DNA from: Acidimicrobiia bacterium
GTDB taxonomy: Bacteria; Actinomycetota; Acidimicrobiia; Spongiisociales; JAHEDJ01
Direction of reading: 5' to 3'
Assembly (NCBI GenBank): GCA_035471805.1
Contig: DATIPS010000065.1
Location: 1-44,177, forward strand
DNA length: 44,177 bases
Below, piece by piece: positions 10,887 to 33,225 of the stretch. How positions within the stretch are numbered: position 1 is the first letter of the stretch; every line of letters starts with the position of its first letter. A program made the translations under genes and the position numbers. A model generated the notes under the pieces. The model did not search any database, was not told where the DNA came from, and saw nothing but the letters and a program-made list of their open reading frames with translations.

Positions 10887-11246
10887 TCAGGGCCGGCGGC
10901 CCGCGCTGCAGTGAACACAAACCGAGGTCGCCGGGATTGCTTCGAGTCGCTCGACCGGAATCGCCCCACCGCATCCGTCACACTCGCCGTAGGTCCCCTC
11001 GGCGAGTTTCTCCAAGGCGCGATCGATGTCTGCGATCGACCGGGCGATGGACCGGGCAGTGGCCGTGGTGCTGATCCGCTCGACGGCCTCAGCGGTTCCG
11101 TCCCCTACGCGCTTCCCGAAGGAAACATTCGTCCCGGCTTCGGGAGGAGCCGTCAACGCGGCGAGCTCGCCGGCCAGCTCGGACCGTCGTAAACGCAACC
11201 GCTCGGCCGTCGATGATGGTTTCTCAGCAATACTGTGATTCCCCAC
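10887..11246 (-). CDS. DksA/TraR-family zinc-finger regulator
   Basis: About 119 residues. The C-terminus has a single DksA/TraR C4 zinc finger (CDGC, 17 residues, CVHC) preceded by RSIADIDRALEKLAEGTYGE. These proteins bind the RNA polymerase secondary channel. The frame is open upstream to 11438, but that part looks non-coding. I choose the GTG at 11246, which lies inside the loop of palindromic repeat copy A; a TTG at 11198 or an ATG near 11313 are alternatives. Repeat-derived sequence would then encode the first residues (GNHSIAEK). Start uncertain; family sure. Confidence 0.75.
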   Translation of the reverse strand: MGNHSIAEKPSSTAERLRLRRSELAGELAALTAPPEAGTNVSFGKRVGDGTAEAVERISTTATARSIARSIADIDRALEKLAEGTYGECDGCGGAIPVERLEAIPATSVCVHCSAGRRP

Positions 11247-11269
11247 GCGCACCAGTATTGCTGAGAAAC
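11219..11269. repeat. palindromic element, copy A
   Basis: Perfect 17-nt inverted arms (GTTTCTCAGCAATACTG and its complement) around a 17-nt loop TGATTCCCCACGCGCAC. Same family as copies at 17474-17522, 17535-17583 and 33177-33225. It overlaps the likely 5' end of the DksA-like gene. Confidence 0.9.
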
Positions 11270-11399: not shown

Positions 11400-11432
11400 A
11401 TGTTCGCCACCGAGATTCTCGTACTTCAATAG
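11400..11432 (+). CDS. ilv leader peptide MFATEILVLQ
   Basis: A 10-residue open frame, ATG at 11400 and TAG at 11430-11432, 10 nt after the -10. The run Ile-Leu-Val-Leu (ATT CTC GTA CTT) matches the three end products of the pathway. This is the design of ribosome-mediated attenuation leaders before ilv operons. It is followed by a stem (11432-11463) and a terminator-like hairpin (11472-11496). Starved ribosomes would stall on the ILVL codons and change RNA folding. The message would be nearly leaderless. Seen: peptide and structures. Inferred: control. Confidence 0.8.
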   Translation: MFATEILVLQ

Positions 11433-11463
11433 GCACATACGTCACAACCACGACGTGTGTGCC
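11432..11463 (+). promoter_or_regulatory. leader stem between peptide stop and terminator
   Basis: GGCACATACGTC (11432-11443) pairs with GACGTGTGTGCC (11452-11463), 12 bp with one G-U pair and an 8-nt loop. It begins at the last base of the leader stop codon. It is likely the pause or protector hairpin of the attenuator. TGCCCTCC occurs twice (11460 and 11470), so GGAGGG can pair with either copy. Confidence 0.6.
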
Positions 11464-11471
11464 CTCCGATG

Positions 11472-11496
11472 CCCTCCCAGCCGGAGGGTTTTTTAT
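11472..11496 (+). terminator. attenuator terminator before ilvB
   Basis: CCCTCC (11472-11477), 5-nt loop, GGAGGG (11483-11488), then TTTTTTAT. A classic intrinsic terminator 20 nt before the ilvB start codon, placed to stop transcription inside the leader. Confidence 0.8.
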
Positions 11497-16410: not shown

Positions 16411-16414
<4 letters not shown>

Positions 16415-17469
16415 ACAGCTATCGCCTGGCCGCGATTCCGGGCGATGGTGTTGGGACAGAGGTCACGGCGGAGGCGATAAAGGCGGTCCGGGCTGCCGGT
16501 GCCCGATTCGACTTCTCGGTCGATGTCACCTCCTACGACCTGGGCGGTGAACGCTACCTGCGCACCGGCGAAGTGCTGCCGGACGAGGTTGAAGCTGAAC
16601 TGGCCGGATTCGACGCCATCCTGCTGGGAGCAGTCGGGACACCCGACGTGCCGCCCGGAGTCCTCGAACGAGGGCTGCTGCTCCGGCTTCGATTCGAGTT
16701 CGATCAGTACGTGAACATTCGCCCCGTCAAGCTCTACGAAGGTGCTCCGACTCCGATAGCCGGCCTCACACCGGATCGGTGTGACATGGTGATCTTTCGG
16801 GAAAACACCGAAGGACCGTACGTGGGTGCGGGCGGGTTCTCCCGCAGGGGGACTCCCCACGAGATCGCCAACCAGGAATCCGTGAACACCCGCTACGGGG
16901 TCGAGCGGATCGTGCGCCGTGCTTTCGATCGGGCCAGGCGTTCTCGACGGCACGTCACGCTCGCCCACAAGACCAACGTCCTCAACTATGCGGGCGATCT
17001 CTGGCAACGGACGTTCGATGAGGTCGCCGGGGACTACCCGGACGTGGCGACCGATTACGTCCACGTCGACGCCATGTGCCTCTATATGGTCACGCAACCG
17101 GAGCGCTTCGACGTGGTGGTAACGGACAACCTGTTCGGAGATATCGTGACCGACCTCGGCGCGGCGATTCAGGGGGGAATGGGCCTGGCCGCCAGCGGAA
17201 ACGTCAACCCGGAAAAGGACTACCCATCCATGTTCGAGCCCGTTCACGGCTCCGCACCGGACATAGCAGGCCGGGGTTGGGCCAACCCGGTGGCCGCCGT
17301 CCTGTCGGCGGCCTTGTGCCTTGACCACCTCGGCGAGAGTGAGGCTGCCACAGCCGTCGAACGTGCCGCCGCCTCAGTGTTGCCGGGATTGAGGACCATG
17401 GGTGGCCCCGACATGGGGGCGACGACGGCCGAGATCGGCGATCGGATAAGGGCGACGATCGAGTCCTAG
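16411..17469 (+). CDS. leuB: 3-isopropylmalate dehydrogenase
   Basis: A protein of 352 residues. It oxidises and decarboxylates 3-isopropylmalate with NAD+. Motifs: [11 protein letters not shown], the substrate loop [13 protein letters not shown], and the metal site [17 protein letters not shown] with [12 protein letters not shown] and ANPVAA. It starts at ATG overlapping the leuA stop (ATGA). It is the last gene of the ilv-leu operon, followed by two palindromic elements in the gap to the convergent ATPase gene. leuCD, needed between LeuA and LeuB, are not in the window. Confidence 0.95.
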
Positions 17470-17473
17470 AAGT

Positions 17474-17522
17474 TTTCTCGGCAATACTGATGCGCGTGCA
17501 CAACAACAGCATTGCTGAGAAA
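17474..17522. repeat. palindromic element, copy B
   Basis: TTTCTCGGCAATACTG (17474-17489), 17-nt loop ATGCGCGTGCACAACAA, CAGCATTGCTGAGAAA (17507-17522); two mismatches between arms. The loop is in the opposite orientation to copies A and C. Lies between convergent leuB and the ATPase gene. Confidence 0.9.
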
Positions 17523-17534
17523 TGGTCCCTCTGT

Positions 17535-17583
17535 TTTCTCGGCAATACTGTGGCGCCCCACGCGCATCAGTATTGCTGAGAAA
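17535..17583. repeat. palindromic element, copy C
   Basis: TTTCTCGGCAATACTG (17535-17550), loop TGGCGCCCCACGCGCAT, CAGTATTGCTGAGAAA (17568-17583); one mismatch between arms. Stands 12 nt after copy B, in inverted loop orientation. The 117-nt gap is almost filled by copies B and C. Confidence 0.9.
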
Positions 17584-17586
17584 GCC

Positions 17587-20163
<2,577 letters not shown>

Positions 20164-33132: not shown

Positions 33133-33161
33133 AAGAGGCGGGCCTGTCGGGCCCGCCTCTT
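33133..33161 (+). terminator. hairpin terminator after pntB
   Basis: AAGAGGCGGGC (33133-33143) and GCCCGCCTCTT (33151-33161): 11 perfect bp (12 with an extra C-G) over a 5-7-nt loop. No long T tract follows (only TTCT). The 20 nt before it hold a 12-bp palindrome ACCGTCGACGGT (33113-33124). Confidence 0.7.
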
Positions 33162-33176
33162 CTATCCAGTAGGAAT

Positions 33177-33225
33177 TTTCTCAGCAATACTGATGCGCGT
33201 GGAGAACCACAGTATTGCTGAGAAA
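33177..33225. repeat. palindromic element, copy D
   Basis: TTTCTCAGCAATACTG (33177-33192), loop ATGCGCGTGGAGAACCA, CAGTATTGCTGAGAAA (33210-33225): perfect 16-nt arms; a C at 33226 extends the AAAC end. Loop runs opposite to copies A and C. Ends 11 nt before the nitroreductase ATG. Confidence 0.9.

Follow-up and report, generated by a model that had tools for sequence, protein, structure and literature searches.

A dispersed, position-stable 49-bp palindrome behind genes in Acidimicrobiia, a candidate recognition site for a lineage-specific DNA-binding protein

The usual explanation for dispersed palindromes in bacterial genomes is RAYT-driven mobility. Other chromosomes carry tens of dispersed short palindromic sites that are kept by selection, as for matS/MatP, NBS/Noc, and SBS/SlmA, while inverted DNA uptake sequences (DUS/USS) form inverted pairs behind genes in Neisseria and Haemophilus and occur in lineage dialects. 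Background on REP elements is given in PMC12306157, and GTAG/RAYT REPs and CGTC repeats are defined in PMC3733652. In the CGTC repeats, stems of 8-9 bp enclose loops of 4-5 nt, the CGTC tag is unpaired, a CCA tail is present, and most copies form head-to-head dimers (PMC3733652). Here we describe a palindrome family without a RAYT that appears immobile on the observable time scale, with arms but not loop under strong selection. Literature searches did not find a described family of such repeats in Acidimicrobiia.

The window, meaning the whole 44,177-nucleotide stretch of DNA that was analyzed, belongs to a 2.85-Mb Acidimicrobiia-like MAG (G000; 2,849,484 bases in 70 contigs, 97% complete). 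The initial annotation described four palindromes there, and offered a MITE- or REP-like mobile element or a protein binding site as readings; our results favor the latter and weaken the former. Exact 49-bp units were found at all four places, with eight arm matches compared to 0.19 expected from shuffles. The first copy had been placed correctly but drawn as 11219-11269, which takes in an extra G/C pair beyond the true unit at 11220-11268. The loop was 17 nt in all four copies, and CACGCGCA reads forward in units A and C and in reverse in units B and D, in agreement with the opposite orientations assigned to these pairs. All copies are intergenic, as described, with A between divergent, B and C between convergent, and D between tandem genes. 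The features are as follows:

10887-11198, minus strand: gene for a DksA/TraR-type zinc-finger protein (PF01258), adjoining unit A
11220-11268, minus strand (the strand reading GCGCGTGG in the loop): 49-bp unit A, between the divergent zinc-finger gene (minus) and ilvB (plus)
16411-17469, plus strand: leuB, isopropylmalate dehydrogenase (Pfam Iso_dh), whose stop precedes the doublet
17474-17522, plus strand: 49-bp unit B, which opens a direct doublet and lies 4 nt past the leuB stop
17474-17489, plus strand: left half-site of unit B, TTTCTC-R-GCAAT-R-CTG
17523-17534, no strand: 12-nt spacer between B and C, giving a period of 61 (59-61 genome-wide)
17535-17583, minus strand: 49-bp unit C, which completes the doublet
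17568-17583, minus strand: right half-site of unit C, the reverse-complement arm
17587-20163, minus strand: P-type ATPase gene (Pfam E1-E2_ATPase), convergent with leuB
33133-33161, plus strand: ordinary GC-rich stem-loop, terminator-like, that follows the pntB stop and precedes unit D
33177-33225, plus strand: 49-bp unit D, between the terminator-like hairpin behind pntB and the start of a nitroreductase gene

The P-type ATPase gene, which converges on leuB, has its stop 3 nt beyond the end of unit C, and the B/C pair fills the 117-nt gap between the two genes (4 + 49 + 12 + 49 + 3). The hairpin at 33133-33161 is a separate terminator-like element outside the palindrome family. In the ilvB leader (11400-11494), a short frame, MFATEILVLQ (Ile-Leu-Val-Leu), is followed by a GC hairpin and a T-run; this leader resembles a classical branched-chain amino-acid attenuator, and its hairpin and T-run show that the organism does have ordinary intrinsic terminators. 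A branched-chain theme, suggested by ilvB and leuB in the window, was rejected, since it is absent at other places.

Genome-wide, arm matches with at most two mismatches numbered 91 forward and 93 reverse, compared to 1 and 1 for a reversed control. The genome holds 91 units in 64 places, so the family is not limited to the four copies in the window. Single units occupy 37 places and direct doublets 27, with a period of 60 bp in 21 doublets, 59 in 5, and 61 in 1; triples were never seen. Each unit consists of two inverted half-sites, TTTCTC-R-GCAAT-R-CTG, with 17 bp between them and R at unit positions 7 and 13, in the same arrangement in both arms of every unit. Half-site positions 2-3 and 8-12 were invariant in 178/178 half-sites, and positions 7 and 13 were nearly always purines (A or G). 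The loop, which had been described as constant in length and sequence, is fixed in length only: orthologous loops are 71-76% identical, and by column counts the loop retains chiefly G19, C22, and a one-sided preferred TTGCGCGTGG. Even the length has exceptions, as 89 of the 91 units are 49 bp long and the other two reach 50 bp, with an 18-nt loop and an AT-rich center that differs from the rest.

The 50-bp subclass, with an 18-nt AT-rich loop of the GTTTT/GAAAAC type, is seen at L067 2090-2139 (G000:C14) and again in the relatives G001 (L065 5293-5342, G001:C40) and G002 (L066 3336-3385, G002:C59), where it sits between divergent rplM and ilvA. At L092 ~1455-1550 (G000:C54:100877), one unit is nested in a wider inverted repeat, GTCACAAC...GTTGTGAC.

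The two half-sites of a unit were statistically independent at position 7 (p = 0.6), and at position 13 matching was, if anything, avoided (p = 0.07). Position 13 depends on loop direction: in G000, G was present in 39/75 on the GCGC side of the loop compared to 17/75 on the other side (p = 0.0003), and the unit is thus polar. G001 and G002 usually have ACTG in one half and GCAA in the other at positions 13-16, so that pair 15/35 is mismatched, as A.A or T.T, in 18/21 units. Within doublets, loops agreed at 13.6 of 17 positions in direct orientation compared to 8.9 for random pairs, and in 10 of the 27 G000 doublets (e.g., L004 1501-1609) they differed at no more than one of the 17 positions; loop orientation was the same in 17 doublets, opposite in 2, and ambiguous in 8. 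This match in direct orientation suggests that doublets stem from local 60-bp duplication or local homogenization.

Placement relative to genes was scored with a simple codon-usage gene caller, and is therefore approximate, on the stretches around sites, with background gaps taken from 441 kb of contiguous sequence. The 64 places comprise 21 convergent, 37 tandem, and 5 divergent gaps, with 1 unassigned; compared to intergenic gaps of ≥60 nt in the 441 kb, convergent places were enriched (p = 0.0009) and divergent places depleted (p = 0.005). Units start mostly 1-14 nt past stop codons. The nearest stop codon lay a median of 6 nt from the unit and no more than 20 nt away in 49/59 places, and 16/21 convergent gaps had ≤20 nt on either side of the element, which thus takes up essentially the whole gap. 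Closeness to stop codons was also seen in G003 and in G001/G002. The orientation of the loop relative to the gene was random (21:18).

Two simple explanations of this placement were rejected. A regulon is at odds with the flanking genes, which are unrelated (thiolase, acyl-CoA dehydrogenase, ABC transporter, FKBP, and others, as well as DNA alkylation repair, leuB, and pntB). A general terminator of the organism would not be confined to 3/20 of the convergent gaps of ≥60 nt in the 441 kb, and ordinary hairpins coexist with the element in some gaps, with a GC-rich one downstream of the unit in 12/58 convergent and tandem gaps.

A hairpin so close behind stop codons could nevertheless act in RNA, as a 3' UTR structure that protects or trims the upstream mRNA 3' end, stalls ribosomes, or aids termination, and a palindrome would let it work in both directions. 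We consider this unlikely, even though the start of most units just past stops is what it would predict. The units fold strongly (-18.6 to -47.6 kcal/mol, z -2.5 to -12.9), and at clusters 6, 33, and 40 the unit is preceded by the stop and followed by an ordinary terminator-like hairpin, which places it inside the transcript. E. coli REPs have also been reported to stall ribosomes near stop codons (PMC12306157). However, in a generic stem the pairing would be preserved as the sequence diverged, and the opposite was observed. Covariation within the genus was not above shuffles (0.091 compared to a shuffled mean of 0.103), A.C was tolerated about as well as G.U on the gene strand (29 G.U to 19 A.C, a bias that was not significant; p = 0.19), and G001/G002 conserve the A.A/T.T mismatch. 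As for termination, units end in GAGAAA and have no T-tract, their T and A ends stand in the opposite order to those of an intrinsic terminator, and an intrinsic terminator scan of 17400-17700 found none; Rfam 15 gave no matches above the gathering score in the window. The random orientation to genes and the five places between divergent genes also count against an RNA hairpin. Symmetric arm changes between lineages do exist, and fit a DNA dyad equally well as RNA pairing. Because the sequence is kept, pairing is not favored, and orientation is random, a sequence-specific DNA dyad explains these data best.

Comparison with relatives indicated that the units stay in place. In G003 (~89% nucleotide identity), they were kept at 23/23 testable orthologous places, with single or doublet state differing from the window genome at 5 of the 23, and 7 of the 23 lay in contiguous G003 stretches fetched regardless of the element, where 7/7 were occupied. 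In the more distant G001/G002 (~75% identity), the element was kept in 7/9 comparisons, an upper estimate because these loci were fetched as element-bearing; cluster 17 was empty in both. The initial annotation had listed identical positions in distant relatives, without mobility or loop conservation, as a refuting outcome. This outcome is what was seen, and it speaks against mobility while leaving the family itself unaffected.

The same alignments separate the arms from everything around them. In the unselected G003 stretches, arm cores were 97.1% identical, purine positions 82.5%, and loops 71.2% (p = 1e-15 for arm core compared to loop). A larger set, biased since relatives' loci were partly fetched by exact arm match, gave 97.7% for arm cores, 72.3% for purine positions, 76.1% for loops, 71% for doublet spacers, and 88.5% for the surrounding, mostly coding DNA; the unselected contiguous repeat of the arm estimate thus gave the same result as the biased set. 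Arm cores at ~97% beside loops at 71-76% show that selection acts in place on the sequence of the arms. Gene conversion between units was rejected as the cause, since it would also have leveled loops and purine positions, and both vary.

If the family had spread as a mobile element, a driver and traces of insertion might be expected. The initial annotation had proposed looking for a RAYT gene with matching ends, and there was none: Y1/RAYT transposases (PF01797) were absent from all seven carrier genomes (G000-G004, G007, and G014), with control genomes positive, which rejects such an enzyme as the driver. The borders of the 64 places showed no excess of 2-9 bp direct repeats that would mark target-site duplication, nor of outward extension of the palindrome. 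Column counts revealed no GTAG/CGTC-type end tag, as arms end in TTT/AAA with variable flanking bases. Unpaired arms were practically absent, with 182 of 184 arm matches lying in units of this 97% complete genome, and thus no autonomous parent with matching terminal repeats was found. Two IMG/VR hits proved to be one chance match inside a long gene, and a viral origin was rejected.

The units may instead be settled remnants of a REP- or MITE-like repeat that spread before the genus split, with insertions retained in the least harmful spots and the spreading enzyme since lost or unrecognized. Dispersed copies would fit such a history, as would the likeness of doublet loops in direct orientation, differences in presence between species such as cluster 17, and the polarity and conserved stem mismatches, which recall single-strand-processed hairpins. 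This origin nonetheless seems doubtful to us. Besides the missing transposase, target-site duplications, and viral copies, there was no turnover at ~89% identity, and dead repeats would not hold 97% arm identity beside 71% in loops. These alignments speak for selection in place and not for current mobility.

A scan for the genus pattern across 395 class genomes found units in 5/5 genomes of the genus and in 0/390 others. A scan of genome contigs gave MAGs labeled Acidimicrobiia, Actinomycetes, or 'bacterium'. A covariance model extended the family to G014 and G007, from another family (f4) of the same order, and a dialect pattern scan added G027 to the sister-family carriers; pattern, covariance, and dialect scans detected no units elsewhere in the class beyond the genus and this one sister family. 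The sister dialect, TTTCTC-GTCAATGCTGG, has the 49-bp length of the genus units and 60-bp doublets too, and in G014/G007 the arms, TTTCTCGTCAATGCTGG...CCAGCATTGACGAGAAA, are often tight against stop codons. GCAAT is replaced by TCAAT in both arms of the f4 dialect, and in G001/G002 R7 has become C7/G43, again symmetrically. From lineage to lineage, both arms thus change in the same way, with length, spacing, and placement kept. One sister-dialect unit, at L072 1501-1640 in G014, is a perfect palindrome except for a 3-nt center and lies between a gene end and the apparent 3' end of a tRNA gene.

Lineage dialects, placement behind genes, and a sequence conserved beyond need would also be expected if the arm were a DNA-uptake word, kept in inverted repeats by uptake drive. 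We regard this as very improbable: almost no single arms exist (182/184 are in units), and known uptake words reach far higher copy numbers than this element.

Our preferred reading, to which we assign a probability of about 0.45, is that a putative lineage-specific protein recognizes the element as double-stranded DNA. Two subunits of this protein would sit on the facing half-sites, whose centers are 33 bp apart, or roughly three helical turns, with a middle stretch of 17 bp that is fixed in length and free in sequence, and tandem sites would form a larger complex. Selection holds roughly 64 of these places in a genome directly behind genes, many of them with two units at a 60-bp period. Sequence comparison documents the constraint on the arms, their spacing, the stable positions, the placement at gene 3' ends, and the joint change of half-sites between lineages. 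The arms carry ~60 bits of information, far more than a regulator would need for 64 sites in 2.85 Mb, and because of this excess, shared descent or homogenization may contribute. Polarity, seen at position 13 in G000 and at positions 13-16 in G001/G002, is not explained by a plain homodimer; together with the G001/G002 mismatch, it would also suit a heterodimer or a single-strand hairpin with a processing enzyme.

From their placement, the complexes may form boundaries between transcription units or organize the chromosome. A boundary, whether roadblock or insulator, would serve best where genes converge, whereas chromosome-organizing sites in these positions would leave promoters undisturbed. 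At least 8 tandem places lie ≤30 nt before the next start, and a strong transcription block therefore cannot be the rule. More tentatively than the recognition site itself, we propose that these polar 49-bp dyads, often in pairs with a 60-bp period, are where a putative lineage-specific protein binds DNA and so marks the 3' ends of ~60 transcription units in each genome. Such a system would use protein to bound transcription or would organize the chromosome, and its protein and half-sites would change dialect together.

The family points to a putative binding protein in a class of actinobacteria for which genetics hardly exists, and the change of dialect between families offers a natural specificity swap by which a candidate protein might be identified. 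It would also provide a clean test case for whether intergenic palindromes behind genes serve as protein-bound boundaries.

Among known systems, REP/REPIN/BIME elements with a RAYT (TnpA-REP) and a GTAG tag are alike in being dispersed intergenic imperfect palindromes that number from tens to hundreds, have polar stems, and frequently occur in pairs and near stop codons. REPs are, however, short palindromes (20-40 bp) in head-to-head or tail-to-tail (HH/TT) dimers, whereas the units described here are 49 bp long, with 16-bp arms and a 17-nt loop, form direct 60-bp doublets, and have kept their positions over long times, with neither a GTAG tag nor a Y1 transposase in any carrier genome examined. 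CGTC repeats are likewise palindromic without a dedicated transposase, but their tag, stem, loop, tail, and dimer features are all absent here; the general look is shared with both GTAG/RAYT REPs and CGTC repeats, and every tested defining feature fails. Intrinsic (Rho-independent) terminators are also hairpin-forming palindromes directly behind genes that suit convergent pairs, but the present element lacks a T-tract and has a long A/T-tipped stem, a 17-nt loop, and one sequence everywhere. Inverted DUS/USS differ in that abundant single copies accompany them, compared to practically no single arms here. matS, NBS, and SBS sites are much shorter than this 49-bp, 3'-intergenic element doubled at 60 bp. 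The features tested for a dyad site were all found, namely sequence-specific constraint, fixed half-site spacing, and independent halves. By analogy, then, the element may work like a conserved dispersed protein site, set among the dispersed intergenic palindromes.
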